From the NCBI GenBank assembly GCA_913062525.1, contig CAJXWA010000012.1, forward strand, positions 1 through 40,549: 40,549 nt of DNA, in the 5' to 3' direction. The notes under the pieces are model-generated. The model made no database searches. It was given only the letters and a program-made list of their open reading frames with translations, and had not been told where the DNA came from. This stretch comes from an uncultured Alphaproteobacteria bacterium. GTDB lineage: Bacteria > Pseudomonadota > Alphaproteobacteria > Sneathiellales > Sneathiellaceae. Position numbers and translations under genes: made by a program. Shown piece after piece: positions 3,313 to 40,549 of the stretch; the first letter of the stretch is position 1; each line of letters opens with the position of its first letter.

Positions 3313-3947
3313 TGAATTTGGAGAGTCTGGATTGGTCTGAGGATCAAATAGACGCGCTAACCGAAATCATGAATATGGGCATAGGGGTAGCTGCCAAAAG
3401 TCTAAGTGATATGGTGGGCGAAGAAGTCATCCTGAATATCCCAAAAATTCGCCTAGTTTCCAGAAGTGAAATTACGAACGATCTGGCAGAACGAAATCCA
3501 GAAGGCTTGTCCTATGTTTTCCAAGATTTTAAGGGCAGTGTGTTCGGCCGCTCTGCGCTTTTGTTCCCAATTCAGAAGAGTTTCAATCTGGTTAAAGCTT
3601 TGCTTAAAGACATGGTCAATGACGACGAAATGACAGAAATGGAACAAGAAGCACTGTCTGAAGTTGGCAATGTAATTCTGAATGCTTGTATCGCGACGAT
3701 GGTTGATACTCTTGGTTTGGAAGTCGAAGTTGAAATTCCGCAATATATTCGGGGTGGTCCAGTGGGCGTGTTGTTAGCAGGAGACTCTGAGTTGGACGAT
3801 ACCCAAACTAATTTATTTTGCGCTGTTGATTTCAAGACGCATGAAAGTGGTATCGAGGGTTATGTTCTCTTTTTGTTGGAACTACCATCCGTCAAAAATT
3901 TGAAGAAATCGCTCGAAGAATATGTAAATAATGTTCTAGGTGAATGA
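3309..3947 (+). CDS. cheC: CheC-family CheY-P phosphatase
   Basis: 212 residues with two copies of the CheC phosphatase motif E-x2-N-x22-P. The first is E19/N22/P45 (EIMNMGIGVAAKSLSD) and the second E118/N121/P144 (EVGNVILNACIAT). In this family the Glu and Asn promote hydrolysis of phospho-Asp on CheY. Both sites have all three positions intact, so two active centres are possible. The gene overlaps the receiver gene by 4 bases and is followed after 1 base by the diguanylate cyclase, indicating a three-gene operon. It is not in a chemotaxis cluster here; no CheA, CheW or MCP gene is present. The gene symbol denotes the family, not a proven chemotaxis role. Confidence 0.86.
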   Translation: MMNLESLDWSEDQIDALTEIMNMGIGVAAKSLSDMVGEEVILNIPKIRLVSRSEITNDLAERNPEGLSYVFQDFKGSVFGRSALLFPIQKSFNLVKALLKDMVNDDEMTEMEQEALSEVGNVILNACIATMVDTLGLEVEVEIPQYIRGGPVGVLLAGDSELDDTQTNLFCAVDFKTHESGIEGYVLFLLELPSVKNLKKSLEEYVNNVLGE

Positions 3948-3948
3948 A

Positions 3949-6582: not shown

Positions 6583-7140
6583 TTACGCGAAGATCCGCAG
6601 CCCAAACTTTTCAAGTGCTGCTTGCCAAATCGGGTCAGTTGCCATTTTGAAAATTGTCCGGTTTAAGAACAGCTGTATATCTTTTCGCCCGTTTAGGACA
6701 AGAAAATGACGCGTATAATTGTCATCCGGCCTTGAGGAGATATACAGTTTTTTATCCAAGTTGAATTTGGAAACCATATATTGTGCAATGGTCAATGACG
6801 TTGCGACAAAATCACCTCGTTTGGCGGCTAACATCTTAATATGTCCACCGAAGACAGGTGTGTGGATTTGGTTAATCTTACCTTGCTTGATATAGGGCTC
6901 AAGCGTTTGTTTTACGGCTCCCAAAACGGTGGCGACGGTAATGCAATAACCGGAAACGCCCAACGGCCTTTCGCTTCAGTTGTTAAGTATTTTGCAAGTT
7001 CAAACGTTAAACCGGTACTCTTATCTACAATGAACGGACCGCCATCATGATAGGGAATATCCGTTGCACTGGCGGGTAAGCTCAGAAAACTAACGAGTCC
7101 GAAAAAATAATGCGGCTGTAAGGCAAACAGATTTTGTCAT
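6583..7140 (-). pseudogene. Periplasmic solute-binding protein (SBP_bac_3-like), broken
   Basis: Read leftward, an ATG at 7140 opens a signal-peptide start (MTKSVCLTAALFF). The frame then hits TAG at 7092-7090 just after the T6 run at 7107-7102. In the next frame the sequence continues as a plausible signal-peptide end and mature start (LPASATDIPYHDGGPFIVD), until TAA at 6914-6912. The rest, in another frame, reads EPYIKQGK... to an intact C-terminus at 6583. The pieces together resemble an extracellular amino-acid-type binding protein of about 185 residues, shorter than the usual ~250. At least two lesions make it non-functional. No ABC permease genes are nearby, so it was an orphan receptor or the remnant of a larger locus. 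Confidence 0.7.
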
Positions 7141-7371
7141 TGATATTTTACCCAACTGTACTCTTGTCATCTATATCTCCAAATTAGCTAGAAAGCCGAT
7201 CTGTATCAATGGCATTTAGGAAAGGCTTAAAAAGTACCTAGTTTGGTTGCTATTTAAAGTTAGGGAAAACGCAACCTGAATTAGAGGAAATAATTTCAAG
7301 TATATATTTCATACATTACGGATGGTTGAATTAAAAGTTTAGACCCCTCCTAAATAGGAGGTGACAAAAAA
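7141..7371. other. AT-rich intergenic region upstream of the leader ORF
   Basis: AT-rich stretch between the broken solute-binding gene (leftward) and the leader ORF. It should contain the promoter of the leader/exported-protein pair. Apart from the hairpin at 7346-7361, listed separately, I see no defined element. Confidence 0.45.
7346..7361 (+). promoter_or_regulatory. Hairpin that sequesters a Shine-Dalgarno sequence
   Basis: CCTCCT (7346-7351), loop AAAT, AGGAGG (7356-7361): a perfect 6-bp stem in which the right arm is a consensus ribosome-binding site. An ATG at 7372 lies 10 bases after it. In RNA the site would be paired with a perfect anti-SD sequence, so translation of the leader ORF should depend on opening the stem, whether by temperature, a protein or a passing ribosome. 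The structure is read directly; the regulatory role is inference. Confidence 0.55.
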
Positions 7372-7458
7372 ATGTTTATTTCTATAATTTACATTATAAA
7401 AAAATTATACACACTCATGTGTGAGAAAATGTCACACGCTTCAGGGAGAACAGCATGA
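7372..7458 (+). CDS. 28-codon leader ORF coupled to exported protein
   Basis: Short ORF of 28 residues, rich in Ile, Lys, Met and Tyr at the start (MFISIIYIIKK) and ending SGRTA. Support: it has a consensus AGGAGG at 7356-7361, and its stop codon overlaps the next start codon in the ATGA arrangement at 7455-7458. That organisation is typical of a leader peptide translationally coupled to the following gene. There is no recognisable function for the peptide itself. Because it is so short and AT-rich, chance is a real alternative; the strong ribosome site and the exact 4-base overlap are what raise it above background. Confidence 0.45.
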   Translation: MFISIIYIIKKLYTLMCEKMSHASGRTA

Positions 7459-7721
7459 TTAAAATTATTACCGCCGCGCTAACAGTGGTAACCGTATCAG
7501 GAATGATGATGGGATCGGCATTAGCTGACGGAAATACAGATAAAGTTGTGGCTAAAATGGCTGAAGGCAACGTTTCTGAAATCTGCCAAGGTGGGCGAGC
7601 TACAATAACAACAGCATCATCAAATGCGACTAGGTCTCTTGCACAAGCTGGTGAAATTAGTGGTGATTTTTCAGCTATCGGTAAGGCTGCAGGAGCCCAG
7701 TTTTATAAAGAAAAATGCTAA
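7455..7721 (+). CDS. Small exported protein, unknown function
   Basis: 88 residues with a clear Sec signal peptide (lysine at position 3, hydrophobic core to about residue 22, probable cleavage after SALA at 24). The mature part of about 64 residues is small and polar, with only two cysteines: C44, and C88, the very last residue. They could form a disulfide spanning the mature chain. Ribosome site AGGGAG at 7443-7448. A strong intrinsic terminator follows 20 bases after the stop, so with the leader ORF this is a complete small transcription unit. I do not recognise a family. Confidence 0.72.
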   Translation: MIKIITAALTVVTVSGMMMGSALADGNTDKVVAKMAEGNVSEICQGGRATITTASSNATRSLAQAGEISGDFSAIGKAAGAQFYKEKC

Positions 7722-7740
7722 TTACCGCTCAAGTTAAAAC

Positions 7741-7768
7741 AAAAGCGCCCTTAATCGGGCGCTTTTTT
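7741..7768 (+). terminator. Rho-independent terminator
   Basis: GCGCCC (7745-7750), loop TTAATC, GGGCGC (7757-7762), then TTTTTT to 7768. The stem is extended by AAAA/TTTT. It ends the transcript of the small exported protein. Confidence 0.9.
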
Positions 7769-7911
7769 ATTGGATAAACGGTTGTCTGTTTAGCTATTCG
7801 AAGTTGTTTGTATGACGCGTTAGGGCCCGAATAACGTTTCTTAAGGAACCGGTGACCATAATTCTGAGTTTAGAGCTATTTGTTTCACGCACCTTAGGCA
7901 GCCAAATTAAA

Positions 7912-8037
7912 ATGAAACTTACCACTCATTCTATTTTACTTGTCGAAGACAATTTACCTCTGGCACGTGCGTATGAAGGTTATCTTGCGCAACACCTCAA
8001 CATGTGGACCAGGGGGTTTTCATCATCGGTGACATGA
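7912..8037 (+). pseudogene. Truncated response-regulator receiver fragment
   Basis: The reading frame begins MKLTTHSILLVEDNLPLARA and continues YEGYLAQ. This is the first strand and helix of a receiver domain with its acidic pocket residues (VEDN). After that the similarity stops abruptly, and the frame ends at TGA 8035-8037 after 41 codons. No later receiver motif (phospho-acceptor Asp, Thr, Lys) is found in any frame downstream, so most of the gene is deleted rather than just shifted. The same frame is open from an ATG at 7852, but the receiver start at 7912 is more natural. It is probably the remnant of a two-component regulator. Confidence 0.6.
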
Positions 8038-8041
8038 CTGA

Positions 8042-8215
8042 CTATTCAGATAGTGCTGCAAAATCAGTCCATAGCGCTCGTGATGCACTGCACCAAAATT
8101 CTTCTTTACAGATCATTTTTTGCTGAGTACCATCACAGCCATGGAAAATAATTTCGTACATAACGCGATTGTCGCCGTCATTATTCTTAAGAATATGGCG
8201 GAGGTTTCGTAACAG
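8042..8215 (-). CDS. Possible small protein, about 39-58 residues
   Basis: Leftward frame ending at TAG 8044-8042. The C-terminal 39 residues, from an ATG at about 8158 (MYEIIFHGCDGTQQKM), look protein-like: three cysteines, a balanced composition and the aromatic-rich tail CSASRALWTDFAALSE. A TTG near 8215, preceded by a GGAAG, could extend it to about 58 residues. The frame stays open further upstream to 8356, but there it lies antisense to the AAA_33 gene and looks like shadow. No family recognised. It may be a small real gene or another decayed piece in this region. Confidence 0.3.
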   Translation of the reverse strand: MLRNLRHILKNNDGDNRVMYEIIFHGCDGTQQKMICKEEFWCSASRALWTDFAALSE

Positions 8216-26852: not shown

Positions 26853-28601
26853 ATGCCAAAGCAAAAATCATGGTTTAGTTCAGTAAGCAGCAAGGTTCGC
26901 CCGCTTTTTCTGGAGCTTGTTGTCTATTCCTTCTTCATTAATATTCTTGCTCTCGTAATCCCGCTTTTTGTTCTTCAAGTCTATAATCGTGTTGTCGCAT
27001 TTGGCAATATATCGACCCTGCAGGGGCTGATTGCAGGTGTGTTAATCGCTTTACTGTTTGATTTTCTTCTTCGCCAGATTAGAAGCAGGCTTTTACAAAA
27101 AGCCGCCATGCGCATTGATATTAGTCTTGGTGAAACTGTAATGAAGAAATTCTGGGCACTTCCTCTTCGGATTATGGAAAGTCGGCCCGGTGTTTACTGG
27201 CAGGGGGTTTTCAAGGATGTGGATACCGTCAGAAATACTATAGCAGGTCCGCCGTTTTTACTCCTAATTGATCTGCCGTTCGCGGTGGTTTTTATTGTCT
27301 TGATTTTTATTATAGCCGAACCAATTGCGTGGGTGTTCGTCTCTATTGTTCCTGTGTTTATTTTATTGGCGCTTATTTCTGGAAAACTTGTCGGGCGAGC
27401 GAGTGCGGATGAGAAAAAAGATCAACGCTCTCGGGACTCTCTTGTTGGCGATATGATCAACAGCCGGGGAACGGTGAAAGCTTTATCGTTAGATGCTGGC
27501 ATCGCTCCTTATTGGGAAGACGTTCAGTCCACCAATATCGAAAGTGCCATGAAGCGCGGTATGACCCATGATGGCTTTATTAATCTGGGGACAGTCTTTA
27601 CGCTGGGTACGACCGCTATTATTACGACTTTTGGTGCTCTCGCTATCATAGATCAACAACTCAGTATAGGTGCGCTTATTGCGGCAAATATGCTCTCAAA
27701 CCGGGTCATTGGCCCGTTTAGTCAGCTTGTTGGGGCTTGGAAAAACTTCACTGCCTATAAACAATCTAGGGACCGTCTCGACGAGGTGATGAGTTTGCCG
27801 GTGGAACGTACGGCGGAGACTATTCAGATGAACCGGCCAACGGGGAATCTCGTTCTTGAGAAAGTGTCATTCAAATATATCGAGAACGGCGAGTTTGTTC
27901 TTGAAAATCTGTCCGCGAAGTTTGCAGCAAATGCTGTTCATATGATTATGGGACCAAACGGTGGCGGTAAAAGTACGCTAATTAAATTAATGAAGGGACT
28001 TTATTTAGCTGATCAGGGACGCATCCTCATAGACGGGGCGGACATAACTCAATTCACGCGAAAACAACTGACAAACTGGATCGGTTACGTCCCACAAGAG
28101 ACCGTATTGGTCGATGGAACTATTAAAGAAAATATCTCAGGTAAGCGAGATTATATAACGGATGAAGAGATCATCGCCGTCTGTACAAAAGTTGGAATTC
28201 ATAAAACAATAACTGATTATCCGGATGGATATGCAACAAATGTCGGCGAGGCAGGGCGTTCGTTATCGGGAGGTGTTCGCCAACGGATTGCCATTGCCCG
28301 GGCTCTTATTGGGGAACCACCAATTTTGATTTTTGATGAACCATCGGCCAGTTTAGATCGATTTGCAGAAATCCAACTGAAGGGCCTTTTACAATCGCTT
28401 TCAGAATGCTGCACGATAATTGTTGTATCGCATTCTCCGGTATTGCTCGGAGTAACGTCTTATCTCCATCTTCTGGATAAGAAAAATATCATTATATCTG
28501 GTCCGAAAGATGAAGTTCTTCAAGCGCTAGAAAAACGTCCGAAAAATGAAGCTCCTGTTGAAAAAAGCGATGTTAATGGAAGCGCGCGGGTGGGAGTATG
28601 A
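26853..28601 (+). CDS. Type I secretion ABC transporter (HlyB/PrtD-type permease-ATPase)
   Basis: 582 residues from the ATG at 26853 (MPKQKSWFSSVSS); an in-frame GTG at 26742 would add 37 residues. An ABC membrane domain of about six helices covers residues 15-310. The ATPase domain has Walker A GPNGGGKST (from ~367), signature LSGGVRQRIAIARAL (~471) and Walker B ILIFDEPSASLD. No N-terminal C39 peptidase or C39-like domain is present, as in PrtD-type exporters. It overlaps the membrane-fusion gene by 4 bases (ATGA). With the HlyD and TolC proteins it would form a channel across both membranes, presumably for the giant RTX protein downstream. Confidence 0.93.
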   Translation: MPKQKSWFSSVSSKVRPLFLELVVYSFFINILALVIPLFVLQVYNRVVAFGNISTLQGLIAGVLIALLFDFLLRQIRSRLLQKAAMRIDISLGETVMKKFWALPLRIMESRPGVYWQGVFKDVDTVRNTIAGPPFLLLIDLPFAVVFIVLIFIIAEPIAWVFVSIVPVFILLALISGKLVGRASADEKKDQRSRDSLVGDMINSRGTVKALSLDAGIAPYWEDVQSTNIESAMKRGMTHDGFINLGTVFTLGTTAIITTFGALAIIDQQLSIGALIAANMLSNRVIGPFSQLVGAWKNFTAYKQSRDRLDEVMSLPVERTAETIQMNRPTGNLVLEKVSFKYIENGEFVLENLSAKFAANAVHMIMGPNGGGKSTLIKLMKGLYLADQGRILIDGADITQFTRKQLTNWIGYVPQETVLVDGTIKENISGKRDYITDEEIIAVCTKVGIHKTITDYPDGYATNVGEAGRSLSGGVRQRIAIARALIGEPPILIFDEPSASLDRFAEIQLKGLLQSLSECCTIIVVSHSPVLLGVTSYLHLLDKKNIIISGPKDEVLQALEKRPKNEAPVEKSDVNGSARVGV

Positions 28602-29884
28602 ACAAGTTTTCAACTTTGGAGCGGGCTTACCCACTGAAAGCTTGGCGCATGTTTGGTTGGCTCATTGTCGCCTTGATTATCGTATTTGTGGTTTGGATCA
28701 ATTATGCAGAACTTGAAGAGGTAGCTGTGTTATCTGGTGAGATTGTTCCGCAAAATCAGGTGAAGACCATTCAACACCTTGAAGGCGGCATAATTAAAAA
28801 AATCTATGTGAAAGATGGCTCGCTTGTTAAAAAAAATGATCCCTTGATGCAGTTAGATTTGGCAGTAAACGCCATTAACGAAGAAGGGCTTAAAATTCAG
28901 TTAGCCGGAATTCAAATAAAGAGAGCCCGTTTGGTGGGGGAGAGCGAAGGAAATCCACCCAAATACCCAATTGAGAGCCAGTCGAATATTCGCGCAGTTT
29001 TGAAAGCAGAACAAAACGTTCACAACGCCCGCATTGCTCAAGTAGAAGCAAAAATAAGGATATTGAAGGAAAAGGCTCGGCAAAAGAAACTAGACGTTGA
29101 TCAACTTCGCATTAAATTGTCCGCGATTTCGTCTGATATGGAAGTTTCTCAGCGGAAGTTTGCCATGTCTAAAGAACTTCTCGCAGCAAACCTCACACCA
29201 AAAATTGAACATCTACAGCTTGAGACCGAGCTCACACGGTTGACTGGAGAAGTGAAAACACTACGGCCTGCCATCCCACGTGCGCAGGCTGCCGCATCTG
29301 AGGTTCAGGAAAAAATTAAGGAAGAGCGGCTTAATTTTCGCCGTGAGGCTCAAGAGGAGTTGAGTGAGACAGAGGTTGAAATTGCCCGGCTGAAAGAATT
29401 GCTCATCACTGCAGTTGATCAGGTGACAAGAACGACAATTAGAAGCCCGATTGATGGCATCGTGAAAAATGTTCGCAATAACACAATCGGTGGAATTGTC
29501 CGTCCAAGTGATGCAGTTATGGATATCGTCCCCTCCAGCGATAAACTGGTGGTGGAGGCGAAGCTTAGCCCGTCTGATCGCGGCTTTGTTGAAGTTGGGC
29601 AGGATGTGACCGTTAAGCTGACCGCATATGATTTTTTCACCTATGGGGGCCTGCGCGGGAAGATCGCAAATATTGCCGCAGATTCAACAATTGAAAAAGA
29701 TGGGCAAACCTTTTTCAAAATAATTGTTGAGACTGAAAAAGAGGCGGATGGCGGGATGACCGGTATGTTGGTCTCTCCGGGTATGCAAGCCATGGTCGAC
29801 GTGCACACAGGAAAGAAACCAGTTCTTCAATACTTGTTGCAACCGGTTTTGAGACTGCGGCACGAGAGCTTTAGAGAGCGATAG
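28598..29884 (+). CDS. HlyD-family membrane-fusion protein
   Basis: 428 residues: a short cytoplasmic N-terminus, one membrane helix (about 18-37), then a biotinyl-lipoyl-like half-motif (LSGEIVPQNQVKTIQHLEGG). A long coiled-coil hairpin follows (about residues 90-270, EAKIRILKEKARQKKLDVDQ), then the second lipoyl half (RSPIDGIVKNVRNNTIGGIV) and a beta-barrel domain. It is the periplasmic adaptor between the ABC exporter and the TolC-like channel. It overlaps the ABC gene by 4 bases and is followed after 10 bases by the cyclase gene. Confidence 0.93.
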   Translation: MNKFSTLERAYPLKAWRMFGWLIVALIIVFVVWINYAELEEVAVLSGEIVPQNQVKTIQHLEGGIIKKIYVKDGSLVKKNDPLMQLDLAVNAINEEGLKIQLAGIQIKRARLVGESEGNPPKYPIESQSNIRAVLKAEQNVHNARIAQVEAKIRILKEKARQKKLDVDQLRIKLSAISSDMEVSQRKFAMSKELLAANLTPKIEHLQLETELTRLTGEVKTLRPAIPRAQAAASEVQEKIKEERLNFRREAQEELSETEVEIARLKELLITAVDQVTRTTIRSPIDGIVKNVRNNTIGGIVRPSDAVMDIVPSSDKLVVEAKLSPSDRGFVEVGQDVTVKLTAYDFFTYGGLRGKIANIAADSTIEKDGQTFFKIIVETEKEADGGMTGMLVSPGMQAMVDVHTGKKPVLQYLLQPVLRLRHESFRER

Positions 29885-29894
29885 GAGGATTGTT

Positions 29895-32126
29895 GTGAGG
29901 AAGGGTGTGCCCAAATTTATTCTCAAGCCATACCAATTTTTATTTGGCTCCATTGGACAAAAAGTGGCATGGAGCATCCTTGTACTGATCTTATCCATCC
30001 ATTATTTTAACTCGCCAATTGTCGAAGGCGTCCGCAACAGATCTTTTGACATCTACCAGCGGCTCGCACCTCGTGCCCCCGATAAGGTTTCCCCAGTCGT
30101 TGTCATCGATATTGATGAAAAAAGTTTGTCACGGATCGGACAGTGGCCGTGGCCACGAGATATGTTAGCTGAGATGGTAAAACGTCTTACTAAAATGGGA
30201 GCTGCGGTCATTGGTTTTGATATGGTGTTTCCAGAAGAGGATCGATTATCTCCCCCATTACTTGCGAAAAGTCTTCGCGGAATTGACCAAGAAACACGGG
30301 ATAAACTATCGAACCTTAAAAGTAATGATGAAGTACTTGCTAACGCACTGAAGAGAAGCCGTGTGGTTCTTGGTGGGTTTGTGAGCAACGATGCAGAAAC
30401 GGTTCAAACAGGAACACTCGACCGCCTACCTAGTATCAATTGGATTGGTAAAAACCCGAACCGCTTTGTGCGGTCCGCGTCTCAATTTGTGGGAAATGTT
30501 GACGTTATCGAAGAGGCGGCTTCCGGATATGCAAACTTTACGTTGGATAGTGACTTCGACGGTATTATTCGGCGGATTCCGCTTTTGACACGGGTTAAAG
30601 ACAAACTCATACCCATTTTGGGACTTGAGGTGTTGAGGGTTGCCACAGGGCAGAATGTGTTAGTGAAGGCTAGCGAAAATGGCATCGAAGGTATTGTTGT
30701 TGCGCGGACGCTAATCCCAACGGATGGGTTTGGTCGCATGTGGATCCGCTATTCGAAGTTCGATGCGAGCAAATATGTGTCTGCGGTTGATGTCCTTAAT
30801 GGCTCTCTAGATCCCCGGAAAATATCAGGCAAACTTGTTTTGTTTGGCACGTCAGCGACGGGCTTGAAAGACCTGCGTTCGACGCCTGTTAATGCGATCG
30901 TTCCGGGAGTGGAAGTCCACGCGCAGATGCTTCACACAGTGCTTGCGGGTGACCATTTATTTCGCGGAGATCTAATGCGCGCAGTAGAGTGGTTGATCAT
31001 ACTGGTTGCTGGCATAATGTTGATCGCATTCATGCCGCTTGCCGGAGCTAGCACAACGTTTTTTATTCTTCTATCAATGACCGGAATGTCTATTGGCGCA
31101 GCAGCCTATTTGTTTGTGGAAAAATCAATTCTGATGGATGTCACGTTGTTTACCGGAACGTCACTGCTTCTCTATATCGTTCTTGTGTATTCCAATTTCC
31201 GATCGGCAGAACAACAACGCAGTCAAATTCGGAGCGCTTTTGCCCACTATTTGTCTCCCGCTATGGTGAGCCGTCTTATGGACTCTCCTGACCAATTACA
31301 GCTCGGTGGCGAGGTAAGGACAATGAGTTTCCTGTTCTGCGATATTAGGGGGTTTACCGGTATTTCTGAGCAATTTAACGATGATCCAAAAGGATTGACC
31401 AAGCTTATCAACGATTTTTTGACGCCAATGACCGACATTATTCTCAACCACGGCGGGACGATCGATAAGTATATGGGAGATTGCATCATGGCGTTTTGGA
31501 ATGCGCCGTTAGATGACCCTGAGCATCAAAAAAATGCTGTAGAGGCCGCGAAGCTGATGCATATCGAGCTTAATAATGTGAACGAAAAGACACGATTGAA
31601 AGCGGAAGCTGCAGGACGCAAGTTTATCCCAATAAATGTTGGCATTGGCATAAATTCCGGGCAATGCGTCGTTGGAAATATGGGGTCTGAGCAGCGGTTC
31701 GATTATTCTGTTCTGGGGGACGCCGTTAATTTGGCTGCAAGGTTAGAGGGGCAGTGCAAAGCCTATGGTATGGAAACGATCATCGGGCCTGACACTGCGG
31801 CTGAGGTAGATCAATCCACAATAATGGAATTGGATTTAATTGCGGTTAAAGGAAAAAGTGAAGCCGTTAGGATTTACGGCTGTTTGGAGAAAGAGAATGC
31901 GGCTGCAGAAATTAGCCTTCCAGCGCTGAAAGAGACGAACCAGTTGATGTTGGACGCTTACCGATCAAGACAATGGACTGTCGCAAGGGATGCTGCACGA
32001 AAATGCCTTGTTATTGCGCCGCACTTAACGGAGCTCTATTCATTGTATTTGGAGCGAATAGAAAACTATGAAGTGAACGCACCAGGTGCAGAATGGAGCG
32101 GCATTTTTGCCGCAACCACGAAGTAA
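29895..32126 (+). CDS. CHASE2-domain class III adenylate cyclase
   Basis: 743 residues. GTG start with AGGAGGA at 29883-29889. An N-terminal helix is followed by an extracytoplasmic CHASE2 sensor (FDIYQRLAP, VVVIDIDEKSLSRIGQWPWP), three membrane helices (about 355-440), then a class III cyclase domain. Metal-binding D483 (FCDIRGFTG) and D529 (KYMGD) are present. K525 and D609 (VLGDAV) form the adenine-specifying pair, and N612/R616 the transition-state pair. So it should be an active adenylate, not guanylate, cyclase. It lies inside the type I secretion locus, between the HlyD and TolC genes, 10 bases after HlyD; the CHASE2 part faces the periplasm, where the exporter works. Confidence 0.93.
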   Translation: MRKGVPKFILKPYQFLFGSIGQKVAWSILVLILSIHYFNSPIVEGVRNRSFDIYQRLAPRAPDKVSPVVVIDIDEKSLSRIGQWPWPRDMLAEMVKRLTKMGAAVIGFDMVFPEEDRLSPPLLAKSLRGIDQETRDKLSNLKSNDEVLANALKRSRVVLGGFVSNDAETVQTGTLDRLPSINWIGKNPNRFVRSASQFVGNVDVIEEAASGYANFTLDSDFDGIIRRIPLLTRVKDKLIPILGLEVLRVATGQNVLVKASENGIEGIVVARTLIPTDGFGRMWIRYSKFDASKYVSAVDVLNGSLDPRKISGKLVLFGTSATGLKDLRSTPVNAIVPGVEVHAQMLHTVLAGDHLFRGDLMRAVEWLIILVAGIMLIAFMPLAGASTTFFILLSMTGMSIGAAAYLFVEKSILMDVTLFTGTSLLLYIVLVYSNFRSAEQQRSQIRSAFAHYLSPAMVSRLMDSPDQLQLGGEVRTMSFLFCDIRGFTGISEQFNDDPKGLTKLINDFLTPMTDIILNHGGTIDKYMGDCIMAFWNAPLDDPEHQKNAVEAAKLMHIELNNVNEKTRLKAEAAGRKFIPINVGIGINSGQCVVGNMGSEQRFDYSVLGDAVNLAARLEGQCKAYGMETIIGPDTAAEVDQSTIMELDLIAVKGKSEAVRIYGCLEKENAAAEISLPALKETNQLMLDAYRSRQWTVARDAARKCLVIAPHLTELYSLYLERIENYEVNAPGAEWSGIFAATTK

Positions 32127-32274
32127 AAGAAAAATTAGTCATAAAAGTATTAGTAAATAGTTGGGAGAATATTGTTTGTCTGATAATTTTCTGATATTAA
32201 CGCTTTAAAATAGAATTAATTGTGTAGCATACATGGAACATGTGATTGCTGCTGGTCGTCTTCGGGGGGAAGTG

Positions 32275-33597
32275 ATGTTTCGTTGGTCAGTGTCTAGAAA
32301 AAATACTGTCGCGCGTATGAATGTTGCTTTAGCGACAGGCGCAGCGCTTTTGTGCATGGTAACAGCCGCACAGTCAGGAACCCTTGAAGAAGAGCTGAAG
32401 TTTCTGTTGGAAACCCACCCACAACTGGATGTCGGTGCTCAAGGTGTAAAGACAGCAGAAGATGGTGTTGACGCCGCGTTTTCTGGATTTTTGCCAAAAG
32501 TGTCTATTAATGGTGATGCTGGTTGGGAATATACGACCAATGACACGCTGACTGAAGCCTATGATACAGATAGATTTAGGGCTGGTATTGAAGCCCGCCA
32601 AAATCTATTTCAAGGTTTCCGGACGACAGCGGAGATCGCAACAGCTGAATCACAAAAAGAAATCGCTAAACTGGATTTGTCGTTTGTCGAACAACAACTT
32701 CTTTTCGAAGGCGTAATTGCGTTTCTCAATGTTGAAAGATTTGGATTCTTAACGCTGTTGGCTCAGGAAAATGAGAAAACACTTAAAACGCAACTTCGCC
32801 TTGAAGATGAACGCGTGCAACGCGGTGCAGGTATTGAAGTTGACGTCTTACAAGCGAAGTCGAGACTGCAGAGAGCAATAGAACGCCGCGTTGGAATTGA
32901 AGGTAGCCGGCGTGAAGCAGGTTCACGCTATTTGCAAGTGTTTGGCAAGCAAGCTGACGAGTCCGGTTTATTCGAAGCCGTTCCACCATTAGGCAAATTG
33001 CCTGCCAGTCTTAAAGATAGTTTGGCGCGTGCCTTAGATACAAACCTTCAAATAAGAAGTAGCAACATTCAAACACGCGTGGCGGAAGCGCAAAAAGAAC
33101 AAGCTGCTTCTGGCTACTACCCGTCAGTTGATGCCGTCGCCAGATATGACTGGGAAAAAGATGTAGATGGATCTGAAGGAACTGAAGACAGTTTTTTCGG
33201 TGGCGTAGAGCTGAATTGGGAAATATTCTCAGGTTTCTTGACTGACGCTCAAGTCGGTCAGGCATCTGCTCGACACAATAGTTCATTGGCATCTCTGCGA
33301 TATACCAGACAAAAAGTTGAAGAAGAAGTCAGGGTTGCTTGGCAGTCTTTGGAGACAGCGCAGGAAAGAGAGCGATTGCTCGAGAATGCGGTCAATATCG
33401 CAGCAGAGGTCTTTGTTGCCCGGCAAAAATTGAGAGACGGTGGAAAAGAAACAGCACTTAATGTATTGGACGCTGAAAATGAATTCTACGCCGCGCGAAT
33501 TGCGCAAGTTGGGGCCTCATATGAGGCGCGTTCCGCAGTCTATAAATTGCTGCTTGCGATCGGTGAATTAAACCCAACAACACTGGGATTAATGTAG
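32275..33597 (+). CDS. TolC-family outer-membrane efflux protein
   Basis: 440 residues from the ATG at 32275, preceded by GGGGGGA at 32264-32270; an upstream ATG at 32233 would give an N-terminus unsuited to export. Signal peptide to about residue 33 (LCMVTAAQSG). Two repeated halves, typical of TolC: LFQGFRTTAEIATAESQKEI in the first and WEIFSGFLTDAQVGQASARH in the second, each followed by long helices. It is the outer-membrane duct of the secretion system. It is separated from the cyclase gene by about 150 bases, so it may have its own promoter. Confidence 0.92.
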   Translation: MFRWSVSRKNTVARMNVALATGAALLCMVTAAQSGTLEEELKFLLETHPQLDVGAQGVKTAEDGVDAAFSGFLPKVSINGDAGWEYTTNDTLTEAYDTDRFRAGIEARQNLFQGFRTTAEIATAESQKEIAKLDLSFVEQQLLFEGVIAFLNVERFGFLTLLAQENEKTLKTQLRLEDERVQRGAGIEVDVLQAKSRLQRAIERRVGIEGSRREAGSRYLQVFGKQADESGLFEAVPPLGKLPASLKDSLARALDTNLQIRSSNIQTRVAEAQKEQAASGYYPSVDAVARYDWEKDVDGSEGTEDSFFGGVELNWEIFSGFLTDAQVGQASARHNSSLASLRYTRQKVEEEVRVAWQSLETAQERERLLENAVNIAAEVFVARQKLRDGGKETALNVLDAENEFYAARIAQVGASYEARSAVYKLLLAIGELNPTTLGLM

Positions 33598-33736
33598 AAA
33601 AGCACTCACGGCATTACACATCAACATCTATGAGAATCGGTGCACATACATATTTGATTCGTATAATGTACGTCCTTAACCGCAGGAAATTTTTAATCTC
33701 TCCCGGAAAATATCAACTTAGTTGCTTAGCGTTTTG

Positions 33737-33770
33737 AAAAATTAACCATGTTTATTAAGGTTAATTTTTT
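33737..33770 (+). terminator. AT-rich hairpin with T run, possible terminator of the TolC gene
   Basis: AAAAATTAACC (33737-33747), 11-base loop, GGTTAATTTTT (33759-33769), with T to 33770. It is 140 bases beyond the TolC stop. The stem has only two G-C pairs, so termination would be weak. Confidence 0.4.
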
Positions 33771-34106
33771 GCTGAAGTTCGACGTAACAGTACCCCAAAT
33801 GAGAGCTTTATCTTAAATGAGCGTAAAATATTTGGCCTTATTGTCGGGTTGCAATTAAGAATTATTAAACAAAATCAATAGGGTAAGAGTTTGTCTGGTT
33901 GTTTTTAGTCAGCTGTGAGTGCTTTTTCATTGATTTGAGTGATAAATGCAGCGTTTCAACCTAAATCATTTGTTTGTTAATTTTATACCGATAGTTCCCT
34001 TGCCTTTCGAAAAACCTTTTCAAAACGTTAATTTTTACATAAAATTTCTGAAAATTAGCGAAGGGTGAGATTTCGCTGAAAATAGTGCGTTTGGGTAATG
34101 TGTAAG

Positions 34107-34133
34107 CGTAGCAGTCTCTGTGTACCTGCTACG
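34107..34133. promoter_or_regulatory. 8-base inverted repeat upstream of the RTX gene
   Basis: CGTAGCAG and CTGCTACG, perfectly complementary with an 11-base spacer, 52 bases before the GTG start. It may be a regulator-binding dyad or, in RNA, a hairpin in the untranslated leader. Confidence 0.4.
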
Positions 34134-34185
34134 AATAAGTCTTTATCTGATATCGCTCGTCATTTGATCGGGCTGAGGGGGAAAC

Positions 34186-37100
34186 GTGGCTATTAATTTT
34201 TCTGACACTTCATCAACTGAAACTAAACTCTTAAATGATGATGTGATCCTACAGGAAAGTGCGCAGGGCCTTTCCTTCGAAATTCCTCTAGGCAGCTTTA
34301 TTTTCAATGCTGATTATGCTCGTGATGGGCAAGATCTTGTTTTGAGTGATGATTTGGGCCGTGAAGTTGTCATCGATGGGTATTTCACGATGGATCAGCT
34401 ACCGGCTATTTCAAATGAATTTGGAGCAACGGTCGCAGGTAGTTTTGTCGCTAAATTGGCAGGACCCGGACAGGTGGCACAATCTGGTGCAGCAACTTCG
34501 TCATTGGGTGAGCCTGTTGGTGCCGTTGAAACCATAGAAGGCAATGCCACGGTTCGTCACACAGACGGTACAAGCGAGCCGCTTCTTATCGGCGACGAAA
34601 TCTACAAAGACGACATCATTGAAACTGCTGATGACGGGACTTTAGGCATTTTGATGGAGGATGGATCTGTGATCGGTGTCGGTCCCGGATCTCGCATGAC
34701 CATCGATAATTTTGTATATGACACGTCTTCAAGTGAAGGAAGCTTAGGTCTTTCTTTCTTGAAAGGTGCTGTCTCTTTCGTTTCCGGAAAAATTGCCAAA
34801 AACGACTATGACGATGTCGATATTAAAGTTCCGTTCGGATCAATCGGTATTCGCGGGACCGAGTTCGTCGTTGAAATTGGAGACGACGGTATTGCCACTG
34901 TATCGGTTATCCAAGGTGCCGTTGCAGCAACGGTCGGCGGCACAGAAGTTGTATTGAACCCCGGTGAGCTAATCTCACTCGCTGCTGCAGGTCTATCAAC
35001 TGTCGAGACAATTTCTGTTGAGGCCATTCGTGCAAAACATTCAGGCGTACTCGACGCCCAGAAAAAAACACAAGTTATTAAAGAAGGTCGCGATGAAGAA
35101 GGCGGCGGTGAAGATCCTGCGGCTGGCCCCGCAAGTGGGGATCAACCTGTAAATGACGAACCAGTTGCGCCCGATAACAATGGCGATGATACGACTGCTC
35201 CAGATGATCAAAGTAATTCTGAAGATGACACAATTCCTGAATTAACAGTCGTCGAAGTTAGTCTGGATTCTGAGATCGTCGATGGTGTCGATGTATCTGC
35301 TGGATTAACGGATACAGACGTGGGGGCTGCGGCTGTCGTGATTACCGTGCCGCCTAGCGATAATACACCACCACCAGAGCCAAATTTTGATTTTAGTGGA
35401 ACTGGAGATGACGAAGAACATACCGGCGGACCCACTGACGATGTAATTTCCGGCGCAGGAGGGAATGATACTCTAAGCGGTGCCAGTGGCGATGATACTG
35501 TTGATGGCGGCGCCGGCAATGATTTCATCGAAGGCGGAGAGGGGAGCGTTGACATTCTCCTTGGCGGTTCTGGTGACGATGAAATCTATGGCGATGATGC
35601 CGCAGATCTCGAACCCACAACTGGTGATGATGATACTCTGTTTGGCGAGGAGGGTGCTGATACTCTGTACGGCGGCGGCGGCGATGATTTGCTGGACGGC
35701 GGTGACGATAACGATGTATTGGACGGCGGCCATGGTAATGATGTGTTGGACGGTGGCGCCGGCGCAGATATCGCAGTTTATAGTGGAGATGTATCCGACT
35801 ATGTAGTCTCCATCACTGACGGTGAATTGTATATTTTAGAGACGTCTACAGGTGATGTAGATCAGCTTGAAAATATTGAACAAGTCTCATTTAATGACGG
35901 AACCTTTTCATTTGTGGCTTTTGATGTAACTGGGTCAGCTGCCATAGACGAAGGTAGTTCAGGAAATTACACAGTCACGCTGACAGGGACGCCGTTACAG
36001 ACGGGCCAAACTGCAACTGTTGATATTTCTCTTCTCGATAATGGTACAGATTTGGCAGATTATGCCGATTTCGCTGCAGCGGTGCAATCCGCAGCGGACA
36101 GCACAACGGGAGTGTCCTTTGATGGGACTACTCTTACGTTTACTGGTGGGCCAGGTAACGCAACAGAATTAGATTTCTCATTGGGTCTTGAGTTGGATTA
36201 CTTGCTGGAGGGTAGTGAGGGTTTCCAAATTGTCCTTTCATCACCCGGTGGGACTGATCTGGTTGGAGATGGCGTCTTAGCTGTTCTGGACGGCGGCACC
36301 GCCGATACGGCAGTTACTGATGCCACCGCAGCTAACGTTTCATGGACCCTCGTGGAAAATAACGATCCTGTGTCTGAAGGGGCTAGCGCGTCTTACACAA
36401 TCGAATTTACAGGTGTCACGCTTGATGCGGGCCATTCGGTTTCAATTGACCTTTCATTTATTGCTGGGACGGCGAACGCCGCGGATTTTGATGAAACGTT
36501 GTCTCAAGATTTGATCGATGCCGCCAGCGGCGTAACTGGTGTCACTGTATCTGATACTACTGTTACGTTTGACGATACGGCGTTGAATTCCTTTACATTT
36601 ACTTTGCCAACAACCAGTGATGGCTTGGTTGAAGGCGACGAGACTTTTTCTCTTCAGATTTCTAATGCTGAAGTTGATGGCGCCCCTAACGGTTCTGGGA
36701 CAGATACTGTAGAGACAACGATTTCAGATGGGGTTGTCTTTTCCATTAGCGGAACGACTTCAGTTGCAGAAGGCGCGACGGCCAGTTACACGCTTGCCTA
36801 TGCCGGGGCACTCCCCGATGGAGAGTCTGTAACAATTGACTTAACGCTGGATGAAACCGATACAACGAGCGGTGATTATAGCGACTTTGTGGCGGCTTTA
36901 ACGACTGCAGCGGGAAGCACTACCGGTGTTACTTTTGATGGTGGGAATACAGTTACCTTCACCGCAGGGATCGGAAATAGCTTAACGCTTGATTTTGATT
37001 TGGCCATGACGGCGGACAGTAATGCCGAAGGCCCAGAAGATTTTTCCATAACTTTATCGGCCCCCACATCCAGTCTTGGGCCCATCCCCGCAGTTGATGC

Positions 37101-40100
37101 AGCCGCCGCTGACGTGACGACTAACATCATAGACGGCGACGTTATCGAGTTCTCCATTACGGGAGATTCAAGCGTTGCTGAAAGCGGAACGTCCAACTAT
37201 GTCATTAGTTATAGTGGAACCCTGCAGGCCGGTGAGACGGTGTCAGTTGTCGTCTCTCTTGATGATGATGTTATCGATGGGACAACTTCTGCTGACTACG
37301 AGAACTTTCTAACAGCGCTCAGTGATGCGGCGGCGGCAGGACCCTCTGGCGTCACAGCATCTGGCAATATACTGACATTCGATAGCACAGTATCTTTTCT
37401 CTCTCTCAATCTTGATATGGTGCCTGATACCGTTGTTGAAGGCGATGAAGGATTTTCGGTATCTCTATCAGGCCCCACTTCCGCGACAGATGTGGTTGTT
37501 ACCGTCGATGGCGGTGCAAATTCTGTATCGACAACTCTTAATGATGAAAGTGCGGGGGCTGTTAGCTGGACACTGACTGAGAATGCAGATCCGGTTCAAG
37601 AAGGAGATGCGGCGTCTTATACGATTGATTTTAGCGGCGCTAGTTTGGATGCCGGACACACGGTATCCATTGACGTCTCGCTCCTGCCGGGCACAGCCGG
37701 TGCTTCTGATTTTACCGATAGCCTGTCTCAAGACCTTATTGATGCCGCGAGCGGCGTAATGGGTGTTTCTGTATCTGGGACAACAGTTACGTTTACGGAT
37801 ACGGCAAGTTCTACTTTTACATTCACTCTACCAACATCGGTCGACGGACTGTCTGAAGGATCAGAGAATTTCTCAATTCAGATATCCAGCCCGCAAGTTG
37901 ATGGCGCCCCTGATGGGAGTATTAGTGGGCCCGACACTGTAGAAACACAATTGGTAGATTCCGCAGCAGACATTATCACGTTTTCTCTAACGGGCGATGC
38001 CGGCGTATCAGAAGGGGCCGGCGGTACCTATACAGTTAGTTATGCAGGCAATATACAGGCCGGGCAAACGGCATCGGTTATCCTTGGTTTGACGGATGGT
38101 GAAACAACATCGGGTGACTACTCAACATTAATCGCCGCCCTGACCACTGCCGTAGGAGCCGTATCTGGGGTTACTTTTGATGGAGCAGACACGCTGACTT
38201 TCGATGGTACTCTAACAACACTTAGCTTCGATATTGACGCCACAGTTGATAGCATCGCTGAAGGGGTGGAAAGTTTTTCTGTAACTCTTGATGACAGCTC
38301 ATCTGCTACCGGTCTTTCTACGGCTATTGACGCGGGAGCCGACACGGTTGTCACAACAATTACTGATGGCGACGTTATCGAGTTCTCCATTACGGGAGAT
38401 TCAAGCGTCGCTGAAGGCAGCTCCGCGAGCTACTTGATTGGTTATAGCGGAACTTTGCAAGCTGGTGAGACAGCTTCGGTCGATGTCTCTCTCGCAGAAG
38501 ATGGGGCCAGTTCTGCCGATTATGAAGATTTTCTGACAGCGCTCAGTGATGCTCTAACCGCAGGTGTAACATTATCAGGTAACACACTGACATTTGATAG
38601 TTCAGCAACCAGTCTGAGCCTATCGCTTGATACCATCGCGGATTCATTGGTTGAAGGATCAGAGGATTTTAATATCTTCCTGTCAGATGATACTGCGCCA
38701 AATGTTACAACAAGTATCGATGGTGCCAATAGTAACGTTGGAACGACAATCACTGACGGAAATGTGGTCGAATTTTCCCTTACGGGTGATACGGGTGTTT
38801 TAGAAGGCCTCGCAGCGACTTATACAATATCGATGACAGGTGATTTACCTTTAGGTGTGACAACGTCAGTGAATGTAACACTTGCGGATGTTGACACCAC
38901 TTCCTCGGACTATGGAAATTTGCTGACAGCATTGTCAGATGCTGCGGCTATTACGAGCGGCGTTTCCGTTTCAGGCGCAACAGTAACATTCGATGGGACG
39001 ACTTCAGCGTTCTCCTTTGACCTTTCGGCAATTGGTGGGGATTTGGTTGAGGGCCCGGAACAGTTTAGCGTCTCGATTGACACACCGACTATATCCAACT
39101 TTGGGTCAGCTGTTTTAGCGGCAGCGCAGCAGGTGGATACAACAATTACAGATGCAGACAGTTTGACGGTCTCTTTTACCGAAGCAACTTTATCTCGGAA
39201 TGAAGGGCTTAATGCTGGATATTCAATTGTTCTTGCAGGATTGGCAGTTGCACTCACGACTCTTCCTGCCGCCGCATCAGTATCATTTGATTTGGAACTG
39301 GATCTGGGATCAGCTGATGCAGCCGATATAACAGGCGTTCTGTCTGATGCGCTTGGGTTATTACCATCAGGTGTTAGCGTTTCAGGCACCGGAAATACTG
39401 TGACCATAACTGTCTCTGACACTGCGACCTTCTCGCTGGGTGAAATCTCACTTGACTTTGATTTGCCGCTTGTTGGCTCAGACGGAACCGAGGCTGATGA
39501 AGATTACACACTGACCATTAGCAATGTTATGGGGACCGGTGTTGATGCGGCCGTTGTCACGGCCATTAACACGACAACAATTGTTGATGATGGTGCTGTC
39601 TCAACTTCTCCAACAGAAAACGCAGATAATATTACGGGCACTTCAGGCGCCGATAATATTAATGCGCTGGGCGGTGATGATACTGTTGACGGTGGCAATG
39701 GCGGCGATACGATTTTGGGCGGCGCTGGGAATGACTATCTGTTCGGCAATGGTGGTTTTGATAATCTGCAAGGGGGTGCAGATAATGATACCCTAGAGGG
39801 CGGAGAAGGAAATGATACCCTTTCTGGCGGAACCGGGGACGATGTCCTTCGCGGGCAAGGTTGGACCAATACACTGAACGGCGGCGCAGGTAATGATTAT
39901 CTTGAAGCTGCGGAAGGTAGTAAATTATACGGTGACGCCGATAACGACACGCTAATCGGCGGTTTCGGTACGGAAAGTTTGGACGGCGGTACAGGTAATG
40001 ACAGCCTTGAAGGCCGCGAACTTAATGACACGCTGTTGGGCGGTGACGGCATTGATACGTTAGATGGCGGTACAGGCGATGACAGCCTTGATGGTCAAGC

Positions 40101-40549
40101 AGATGATGATACCGTTATAGGTGGCGACGGTGACGACACACTTCTTGGCGGTACAGGATCGAACCGGCTTGAAGGCGGAAATGATAATGATACCTATCTT
40201 CTGAATTTAGGAGATGGTGACCATACAGTTGTTGATACATCAGGTGTTGACCGGATTGTTATCGAAGATCTTGGTGATTTTTCAAGGTCAGGCGCTTCAG
40301 ATTTGACGTTCACTCAAGATGATGGATCTAGCTTAACCGTAGAAGATTTATACGGCGCAAGCAGCGTTTCAGTCATTGAATTTTCCACGGTAACCGGGAC
40401 TCATATCTTTGACCTGCATAAGACACTCAGTGGCGATGCCGATGATGATTTGATTATTGGATCAGATGGATTAGCTGATGTGATCGATGGTGGTGATGGG
40501 GACGACCTTCTCTTTGGGGATGGTGGTAATGATACCCTTAGCGGCGGGG
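34186..40549 (+). CDS. Giant FecR/RTX/Calx-beta type I secreted protein, 3' end outside window
   Basis: At least 2121 residues; the frame is open to the right edge. It starts at GTG 34186 with GAGGGGG at 34175-34181; an in-frame TGA at 34174-34176 rules out an earlier start. There is no signal peptide, as expected for type I export. A FecR-like domain occupies about residues 105-270 (SIGIRGTEFVVEIGDDG), then an acidic linker. A first RTX block follows at ~419-528 (GGxGxDxLxG nonapeptides binding calcium), nine Calx-beta-like repeats of ~130 residues at ~578-1805, a second RTX block at ~1812-2002 and the start of another at the edge. Likely a surface adhesin or large exoprotein exported by the adjacent system. 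No enzymatic domain is visible so far. Confidence 0.93.
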   Translation, partial: MAINFSDTSSTETKLLNDDVILQESAQGLSFEIPLGSFIFNADYARDGQDLVLSDDLGREVVIDGYFTMDQLPAISNEFGATVAGSFVAKLAGPGQVAQSGAATSSLGEPVGAVETIEGNATVRHTDGTSEPLLIGDEIYKDDIIETADDGTLGILMEDGSVIGVGPGSRMTIDNFVYDTSSSEGSLGLSFLKGAVSFVSGKIAKNDYDDVDIKVPFGSIGIRGTEFVVEIGDDGIATVSVIQGAVAATVGGTEVVLNPGELISLAAAGLSTVETISVEAIRAKHSGVLDAQKKTQVIKEGRDEEGGGEDPAAGPASGDQPVNDEPVAPDNNGDDTTAPDDQSNSEDDTIPELTVVEVSLDSEIVDGVDVSAGLTDTDVGAAAVVITVPPSDNTPPPEPNFDFSGTGDDEEHTGGPTDDVISGAGGNDTLSGASGDDTVDGGAGNDFIEGGEGSVDILLGGSGDDEIYGDDAADLEPTTGDDDTLFGEEGADTLYGGGGDDLLDGGDDNDVLDGGHGNDVLDGGAGADIAVYSGDVSDYVVSITDGELYILETSTGDVDQLENIEQVSFNDGTFSFVAFDVTGSAAIDEGSSGNYTVTLTGTPLQTGQTATVDISLLDNGTDLADYADFAAAVQSAADSTTGVSFDGTTLTFTGGPGNATELDFSLGLELDYLLEGSEGFQIVLSSPGGTDLVGDGVLAVLDGGTADTAVTDATAANVSWTLVENNDPVSEGASASYTIEFTGVTLDAGHSVSIDLSFIAGTANAADFDETLSQDLIDAASGVTGVTVSDTTVTFDDTALNSFTFTLPTTSDGLVEGDETFSLQISNAEVDGAPNGSGTDTVETTISDGVVFSISGTTSVAEGATASYTLAYAGALPDGESVTIDLTLDETDTTSGDYSDFVAALTTAAGSTTGVTFDGGNTVTFTAGIGNSLTLDFDLAMTADSNAEGPEDFSITLSAPTSSLGPIPAVDAAAADVTTNIIDGDVIEFSITGDSSVAESGTSNYVISYSGTLQAGETVSVVVSLDDDVIDGTTSADYENFLTALSDAAAAGPSGVTASGNILTFDSTVSFLSLNLDMVPDTVVEGDEGFSVSLSGPTSATDVVVTVDGGANSVSTTLNDESAGAVSWTLTENADPVQEGDAASYTIDFSGASLDAGHTVSIDVSLLPGTAGASDFTDSLSQDLIDAASGVMGVSVSGTTVTFTDTASSTFTFTLPTSVDGLSEGSENFSIQISSPQVDGAPDGSISGPDTVETQLVDSAADIITFSLTGDAGVSEGAGGTYTVSYAGNIQAGQTASVILGLTDGETTSGDYSTLIAALTTAVGAVSGVTFDGADTLTFDGTLTTLSFDIDATVDSIAEGVESFSVTLDDSSSATGLSTAIDAGADTVVTTITDGDVIEFSITGDSSVAEGSSASYLIGYSGTLQAGETASVDVSLAEDGASSADYEDFLTALSDALTAGVTLSGNTLTFDSSATSLSLSLDTIADSLVEGSEDFNIFLSDDTAPNVTTSIDGANSNVGTTITDGNVVEFSLTGDTGVLEGLAATYTISMTGDLPLGVTTSVNVTLADVDTTSSDYGNLLTALSDAAAITSGVSVSGATVTFDGTTSAFSFDLSAIGGDLVEGPEQFSVSIDTPTISNFGSAVLAAAQQVDTTITDADSLTVSFTEATLSRNEGLNAGYSIVLAGLAVALTTLPAAASVSFDLELDLGSADAADITGVLSDALGLLPSGVSVSGTGNTVTITVSDTATFSLGEISLDFDLPLVGSDGTEADEDYTLTISNVMGTGVDAAVVTAINTTTIVDDGAVSTSPTENADNITGTSGADNINALGGDDTVDGGNGGDTILGGAGNDYLFGNGGFDNLQGGADNDTLEGGEGNDTLSGGTGDDVLRGQGWTNTLNGGAGNDYLEAAEGSKLYGDADNDTLIGGFGTESLDGGTGNDSLEGRELNDTLLGGDGIDTLDGGTGDDSLDGQADDDTVIGGDGDDTLLGGTGSNRLEGGNDNDTYLLNLGDGDHTVVDTSGVDRIVIEDLGDFSRSGASDLTFTQDDGSSLTVEDLYGASSVSVIEFSTVTGTHIFDLHKTLSGDADDDLIIGSDGLADVIDGGDGDDLLFGDGGNDTLSGG
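35440..35770 (+). repeat. RTX (hemolysin-type calcium-binding) repeats, N-terminal block
   Basis: Tandem nonapeptide-like units such as GGAGNDFIE, LFGEEGADT, GGGGDDLLD and GGHGNDVLD within the giant protein. They are followed by the usual post-array element DYVVSITDGELYI and IEQVSFNDGTFSF. An RTX block this close to the N-terminus is unusual. Confidence 0.9.
37135..37174 (+). repeat. 40-base exact direct repeat, copy 1
   Basis: Identical to 38368-38407. It covers the start of Calx-beta unit 4 (VIEFSITGDSS). The 1233-base offset equals three units. Confidence 0.85.
38368..38407 (+). repeat. 40-base exact direct repeat, copy 2
   Basis: Identical to 37135-37174, at the start of Calx-beta unit 7. 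It marks a relatively recent three-unit duplication or a gene-conversion tract. Confidence 0.85.
39620..40190 (+). repeat. RTX repeats, C-terminal block
   Basis: About 20 nonapeptide-like units (GGNGGDTIL, GGAGNDYLF, GGEGNDTLS, GGTGDDVLR and variants), followed by a linker of about 80 residues. A further RTX unit begins near 40432 and continues past the window edge. They bind calcium on leaving the cell and drive folding outside. Confidence 0.9.

Follow-up and report, generated by a model that had tools for sequence, protein, structure and literature searches.

The window analysed here, 40,549 nucleotides of an uncultured marine alphaproteobacterium of the Sneathiellaceae (contig CAJXWA010000012.1, our C12, from a 3.5 Mb assembly that is 84.8% complete), carries the gene for a CHASE2 adenylate cyclase within a type I secretion system (T1SS) locus, together with a giant RTX protein that has a FecR-like domain near its N-terminus. 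The pairing of CHASE2 with FecR-like proteins, joined to type I adhesins, is real and recurrent. As far as our searches of the open-access literature reach it is also undescribed in this form, and we regard its novelty as provisional. The recurrence of the grouping suggests that the cell reads the state of the giant through cyclic AMP (cAMP). We give a probability of about 0.45 to the reading that the giant is an RTX adhesin whose FecR-like module, placed in the periplasm, would be read by the neighbouring CHASE2 cyclase.

The five genes lie on the plus strand in the order ABC exporter, HlyD adaptor, CHASE2 adenylate cyclase, TolC channel and RTX giant with its N-terminal FecR-like domain. A preliminary description, made from the sequence alone, had given this order, and Pfam bears it out: all three T1SS parts pass their cut-offs (ABC_membrane+ABC_tran, HlyD and OEP).

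Recurrence of the cyclase and the giant

The order (Sneathiella and kin) was represented by 25 genomes, the window's own among them. CHASE2 was found in 23 of them, a match to the giant's N-terminus in 23 and a T1SS HlyD in all 25. N-termini were counted as full-length when the match started at or before query residue 41; one second piece (in G005) and N-terminal matches starting behind that residue were left out. This gave 25 full-length N-termini in 22 genomes, and 24 of these N-termini have a CHASE2 gene within 5 kb. Six of the 25, each in a different genome, belong to a full ABC-HlyD-cyclase-TolC-giant locus. The cyclase, whose lack of conservation in homologous loci would have told against the idea of the preliminary description, is present in all six, and in the five other than the window's it follows hlyD after 1, 3, 11, 11 and 44 bases when every frame is read from its earliest start codon. 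The five-gene locus also occurs in a cultured species, Sneathiella chinensis (L005). In a second type of locus (18/25) giant and cyclase stand head to head, with 0.39 to 1.05 kb between the two matches and no T1SS HlyD match nearby in any of the eighteen. Two of these head-to-head giants were scanned with Pfam; FecR, RTX and VWA are above cut-off in both, while Calx-beta and Big_9 are each above it in one and below it in the other. The window's genome has one locus of each type, the second (L128:14252-19998, contig C26) being a paralogous pair made up of a second CHASE2 cyclase and a second FecR giant in head-to-head orientation.

The class was sampled by an even draw of 114 genomes, 57 of which were covered by a Pfam FecR search. 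Left out of the 5-kb counts were one split CHASE2 second piece, four matches below the family cut-off and split HlyD second pieces; at most fourteen HlyD candidates were scored per genome, so the HlyD counts are lower bounds and HlyD may be undercounted. Expected counts, here and below, rest on even placement, with no correction for contig ends or kinship. A CHASE2 gene lies within 5 kb of a T1SS HlyD in at least 8 of 131 cases (0.78 expected), of a Pfam FecR in 20 of 64 (0.52 expected; 57 genomes) and of a giant-type FecR in 41 of 131 (1.16 expected).

The genome profile of the class, which is independent of adjacency, shows the same association. Matches to the giant's N-terminus occur in 49 of the 114 genomes, and 48 of these 49 have CHASE2 above cut-off, compared with 54 of 114 overall; for matches that combine the prefix and FecR, CHASE2 is present in 18 of 19 genomes. 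The 73 genomes with a T1SS HlyD divide into 43 with both, one with FecR only, three with CHASE2 only and 26 with neither, so the pattern persists inside T1SS-bearing genomes. Because of the relatedness of the species, and because the two are frequently both missing from small genomes, Fisher values for this profile are not to be taken at face value.

A further set consists of named relatives of the cyclase, the best 80 of at least 583, whose counts speak for this clade. Forty-two of the 80 have at least 5 kb of sequence on both sides. HlyD lies within 5 kb in 26 of the 42, and so does an ABC gene; 0.52 would be expected for HlyD from its density (79 HlyD in 20 of these genomes, from 20 hand-chosen loci of the 80), and the 42 loci are related rather than independent trials. 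A FecR match is present in all 20 of these genomes, and in its prefix form in 18. Pfam scans of eight genes close to the named cyclases, all of them long or cyclase-like, gave GGDEF-EAL proteins, metabolic enzymes and GAF-PAS cyclases, with no adhesin among them. In 18 of the 80 loci a second cyclase was found near the CHASE2 cyclase with phmmer (e.g. L045:12252-14552 and L074:14068-16476); these two, the ones scanned with Pfam, have the architecture GAF-GAF-PAS-Guanylate_cyc.

Co-occurrence beyond chance had been set as a test beforehand in the preliminary description, and its outcome is strongly positive: the 5-kb counts in the order, the class and the named relatives, like the genome profile, exceed expectation, and chance neighbourhood can be rejected. 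It is also very improbable that the genes are merely inherited or hitch-hiking neighbours with no functional link. Loci within a clade are indeed not independent, and much of the 26/42 comes from one clade of Rhodospirillales-like records. Against this, the T1SS label needs twelve changes on a FastTree tree of 108 cyclases, with supported branches forcing at least ten for the T1SS-only group, on a tree whose rows were partly chosen for such neighbours. (The tree left out duplicate contigs, except the identical pair L021/L135, and cyclases shorter than 600 aa or scoring below 430 bits.) Gene order also varies between lineages, in a set of compared loci mostly picked for CHASE2, HlyD or FecR proximity and, like the tree, enriched for such neighbourhoods. 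It is TolC-giant-ABC-HlyD-cyclase in L134 and L137 and TolC-ABC-HlyD-cyclase in L138 (with weak TolC and HlyD scores); giant and cyclase are head to head in L155, L156 and L157; and in L158 a 4094-aa FecR giant, its RTX match just below cut-off, precedes the cyclase on one strand with ABC-HlyD on the other.

Kinship of the FecR-like module

The window giant matches Pfam FecR with an E-value of 9.1e-12. We built a profile from 31 N-termini of giants and compared it with two hand-picked profiles, one of nine FecR proteins encoded beside CHASE2 genes and one of eight iron-type FecR proteins. The giant profile matches the CHASE2-linked profile at 1.3e-33 over 176 columns and the iron-type profile at 2.8e-6 over 128 columns. 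Judged by these profiles, the giant's domain is more closely related to most of the FecR partners of CHASE2 than to the iron anti-sigma FecR. With the FecR/PupR anti-sigma factors it has in common the Pfam name and about 128 aligned columns, but the iron-type controls match PupR-type structures and all eight match the NCBIfam FecR regulator model, whereas the giant profile matched no PupR-type structure entry up to E 1 and the regulator model was not listed for any of the 31 giant N-termini. On these grounds the iron-sensing reading of the domain was rejected.

The PDB entry 5ix9 ('Antifreeze protein') is matched by the giant profile at 6.8e-13 and by the CHASE2-linked profile at 4.9e-7, both matches being confined to the first half of the domain; the iron-type profile did not match it up to E 0.1. 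We take this entry, which is named in no paper that we found, to represent the ice adhesin of Marinomonas, by its N-terminal domain. Among NCBIfam models, the best for the window N-terminus are those of the Leptospira FecR-domain proteins LipL45 and Lsa33, followed by retention_LapA (NF033682), all below their cut-offs. LipL45 and Lsa33 each match all 31 giant N-termini and retention_LapA matches 30 of the 31 (E<=0.001 for the latter); of the nine CHASE2-linked FecR proteins, seven match Lsa33 and six LipL45. The giant's FecR-like domain resembles adhesin retention modules in these matches, below the curated cut-off.

In T1SS adhesins the retention domains fold inside and remain in the periplasm, according to the available text of two papers (PMC12077191, PMC13090378), the second of which gives [T/A/P]AAG as the consensus of the site cut by LapG. 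The window giant has a PAAG, a putative LapG site, 65 residues beyond the point where its FecR profile match ends. Behind the module, [TAP]AAG is found in 5 of 27 giants vs 8 of 230 background stretches, and P[AEQ]AG, a motif picked post hoc from the alignment, in 19 of 27 vs 1 of 230, an enrichment that kinship explains in part. All 25 genomes of the order have LapG homologues; in the window's genome they lie on contigs C142 and C188, outside the window. No lapD or lapG was seen in the window's locus, where the genes behind the giant are beyond the contig end and lapD was not searched for. A separate locus, seen at L153:5032-9109 (the window's genome, C142) and L154:7271-11380, combines a LapG homologue with a T1SS HlyD and with a PAS/HD_5 protein, which in L154 has a weak dCache match below cut-off. 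In both, the HD-type protein adjoins LapG where LapD would be expected.

The locus invites comparison with LapA/LapD/LapG control (PMC13090378, PMC12077191), as far as the available parts of these papers describe it. It likewise has a T1SS RTX protein with a retention-like N-terminal module, a LapG-type PAAG motif in the giant and LapG homologues throughout the order. It differs in that its sensor is a predicted cAMP cyclase rather than a receptor of cyclic di-GMP (c-di-GMP), in the score of the giant's domain, which is below the curated retention_LapA cut-off, and in that one LapG homologue is encoded alongside an HD-domain protein and another T1SS HlyD.

The cyclase and its locus in the window

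The window cyclase has a CHASE2 domain (2.6e-60, 204.6 bits, above the Pfam cut-off) and a Guanylate_cyc domain (1e-16, 61.5 bits). Six active-site residues are all present: the metal-binding pair of Asp, and Lys, Ser, Asn and Arg. Across 108 cyclases, the window's included, the counts are D 107, D 106, K 106, S 105 (with T in the other three), N 108 and R 108, in agreement with the earlier statement that the catalytic residues are there. The protein is a predicted cAMP cyclase. One hydrophobic stretch precedes CHASE2 and three come after it, an arrangement compatible with the periplasmic CHASE2 that had been proposed. The window's genome has two strong HTH_Crp_2 matches, CRP-type regulators that could bind cAMP; neither was tied to the CHASE2-cyclase locus.

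The cyclase opens with a GTG ten bases behind the end of hlyD and has its own ribosome site, both as first described, and it is probably made from the exporter's transcript. TolC and the giant are separated by 588 bases, and the giant may for this reason have its own promoter; a scan for promoters and terminators found such patterns no more frequent than in shuffled sequence. The best NCBIfam matches of the ABC exporter are of the LssB and PrtD types, both below cut-off, and relative to the LssB model it is about 133 residues short at the N-terminus. The giant is cut by the contig end after 2121 codons; RTX repeats are present in the visible part, as they are in a complete relative (L115), while its C-terminus, and with it the C-terminal export signal, lies beyond the visible sequence.

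Table 1. Features of the secretion and cyclase locus, in positions of the window.
Feature	Position	Strand	Basis or remark
Type I secretion ABC exporter	26853..28601	+	Pfam ABC_membrane+ABC_tran
HlyD-type periplasmic adaptor	28598..29884	+	TIGR01843, 351.9 bits vs cut-off 208.65
Ribosome site of the cyclase, AGGAGG, which overlaps the stop codon of hlyD	29883..29888	+	
CHASE2 adenylate cyclase	29895..32126	+	CHASE2 ~29994-31019; catalytic domain ~31320-31862
TolC-family outer membrane channel	32233..33597	+	Pfam OEP above cut-off; TIGR01844 just below cut-off
RTX adhesin-like giant, open at the contig end	34186..40549	+	Prefix, FecR-like module, Calx-beta and RTX repeats (Pfam)
FecR-like, retention-module-like domain of the giant	34510..34965	+	~residues 109-260
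PAAG in the giant, fitting the LapG site consensus [T/A/P]AAG	35116..35127	+	Residue 311

Elsewhere in the window, positions 6583-8042 hold a short minus-strand open reading frame (ORF) that by eye resembles the end of a periplasmic binding protein, followed by about 1 kb with no ORF of 100 aa, possibly decayed genes. On the same visual basis, 2860-5283 would encode a response regulator, next to it a CheC/CheX-like protein and then a PAS-GGDEF protein.

What the cyclase may sense

In the mechanism that we favour, the locus would make, export and monitor a large RTX adhesin. The giant would be exported C-terminus first by ABC, HlyD and TolC, and its N-terminal FecR-like module would fold in the periplasm and retain the protein in the envelope, in the manner of LapA-type retention modules. 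The CHASE2 sensor domain would lie in the periplasm beside this module. The presence, absence or cleavage of the module would then alter CHASE2, in whichever direction, and hence cAMP, which would tell the cytoplasm whether the adhesin is anchored. In a broader form, to which we give somewhat less credence, this would be a cAMP counterpart of the LapD circuit in the Alphaproteobacteria: the retention module of an anchored RTX adhesin would be the ligand of the CHASE2 cyclase, anchoring, completion of export or proteolytic release would be reported as cAMP, and the FecR-like proteins encoded beside CHASE2 elsewhere would be the same ligand in separate form.

Coevolution of the two domains was examined with a mirror-tree analysis of 38 hand-picked CHASE2-FecR pairs, as a partial correlation given the catalytic domain. 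The partial r is 0.51 (0 of 2000 permutations; 0 of 2000 for the order and 1 of 2000 outside it). As controls we took the cyclase's transmembrane and tail regions, for which no contact with FecR is expected. Within the order CHASE2 has the highest value, 0.79, with 0.58 for the transmembrane and 0.03 for the tail region.

Several results weigh against sensing of the adhesin. Over all 38 pairs FecR tracks the transmembrane and tail regions as well as it tracks CHASE2 (partial r 0.48, 0.52 and 0.51), and for ten prefix giants outside the order the CHASE2 value is -0.06. In the window giant retention_LapA reaches only 39.5 bits (E 5.8e-10) vs a curated cut-off of 50, it comes only third among the models for this N-terminus, and it matches only two of the nine CHASE2-linked FecR proteins. 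Three divergent CHASE2-adjacent FecR proteins (L150-L152) were excluded from the nine-protein profile; the giant N-terminus matches two of them weakly (2.8e-8 and 1.6e-4) and one not at all. The one exception among the 25 full-length N-termini of the order is a 561-aa prefix+FecR protein (G016:C1, L132:7977-9659) with no CHASE2 on its contig. A FecR protein lies near only 9 of the 42 named cyclases, most of the T1SS-linked ones having no FecR giant nearby, and the 20 genomes of named relatives have two to ten HlyD genes each, so that more than one exporter may be available to the giant. In the class, CHASE2 is found within 5 kb of only 6 of the 33 prefix+FecR proteins (0.30 expected). Finally, smc02177 of Sinorhizobium meliloti, a FecR gene whose locus tag adjoins that of cyaD1, is dispensable for signal perception (PMC5498481). 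This published mutant speaks against FecR as an obligatory input; the three CHASE2 cyclases of S. meliloti may cover for each other. The suggestion in the preliminary description that the cyclase reads an envelope-held substrate is thus supported in part: the domain does resemble CHASE2-partner FecR proteins and retention modules, but the mirror-tree signal is unspecific and smc02177 dispensable.

The same S. meliloti work bears on shared regulation, in which CHASE2 senses an outside cue and the resulting cAMP turns on the adhesin operon. The cyclase would then never touch the adhesin, and the genes would be neighbours through their part in one common response. We hold this to be possible, though doubtful. 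Gene linkage alone cannot separate it from direct sensing. In the available text of the relevant papers, a ribosomal protein of the plant elicits a response from the CHASE2 cyclases of S. meliloti via the outer-membrane barrel NsrA (PMC13001267), and smc02177, which perception does not require, is a target of the cAMP regulator Clr, through which the cAMP output runs (PMC5498481). Shared regulation leaves unexplained, however, why the giant's module is nearer to CHASE2-adjacent FecR than to iron-type FecR, and why the genome profile is nearly nested (48/49).

That the cyclase senses the exporter, through the occupancy of HlyD or ABC, and not the adhesin is a weaker rival, which we consider unlikely. 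T1SS genes are the commonest tagged neighbour of the named relatives, with HlyD at 26/42 vs FecR at 9/42, and one clade of the cyclase tree has T1SS genes near with no FecR in 39 of 45 rows. Yet the eighteen head-to-head loci of the order pair cyclase and giant with no T1SS HlyD near, and FecR is the more general partner in the class. The 130 class matches to the giant's N-terminus comprise 33 with prefix and FecR, 93 with FecR only and four in neither group. The FecR-only proteins lie within 5 kb of CHASE2 in 35 of 93 cases (0.84 expected) and of HlyD in 0 of 93 (0.57 expected), and the prefix form lies near HlyD in 7 of 33 (0.24 expected). By these counts the prefix form associates with exporters and the bare form does not, and both associate with CHASE2.

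FecR-CHASE2 pairs as such are already in print. The accessible parts of the papers describe a LysM-FecR protein with a CHASE2 histidine kinase in the Burkholderia BiofilmReg operon (PMC5192318) and a Campylobacterota cluster of a CHASE2 adenylate cyclase, a phosphodiesterase, a FecR outer membrane protein and a TPR protein (PMC9239204); in magnetotactic bacteria a CHASE2 cyclase gene follows mtxA (PMC4439547). In the first two, as in the window, a FecR-domain envelope protein is encoded beside a CHASE2 sensor, which in the Campylobacterota is also an adenylate cyclase. The window differs in that an RTX giant carries the FecR-like module as its N-terminus and the cluster includes type I exporter genes, neither of which is mentioned in the accessible parts. 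S. meliloti CyaD1/CyaD2/CyaK offer a similar likeness, with the CHASE2 adenylate cyclase SMc02176 and, under the adjoining locus tag, the FecR gene SMc02177; here the differences are the dispensable FecR gene and that no T1SS adhesin is mentioned in the available text (PMC5498481). The open-access literature, a search of which leaves subscription papers mostly uncovered, gave nothing on CHASE2 with adenylate cyclase and type I secretion, CHASE2 with HlyD, or FecR with retention module; for CHASE2 with adhesin, the adhesin appeared in a reference list only and the CHASE2 was that of the Burkholderia operon. Two papers are listed for FecR with type I secretion and RTX. Of the circuit first put forward as undescribed, then, the tie to type I adhesins keeps that standing within this literature, while the FecR-CHASE2 pair does not.

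What CHASE2 recognizes was called unknown in 2016 (PMC5192318), and in the available account of the plant-protein response via NsrA the direct CHASE2 ligand is unnamed (PMC13001267). A cluster with a CHASE2 cyclase beside an exported giant that bears a FecR-type partner makes CHASE2 recognition testable with two small soluble domains. If the broader form of the mechanism is true, CHASE2 would gain a general family of ligands, and sensing of the adhesin would join surface attachment to cAMP and not to c-di-GMP alone.

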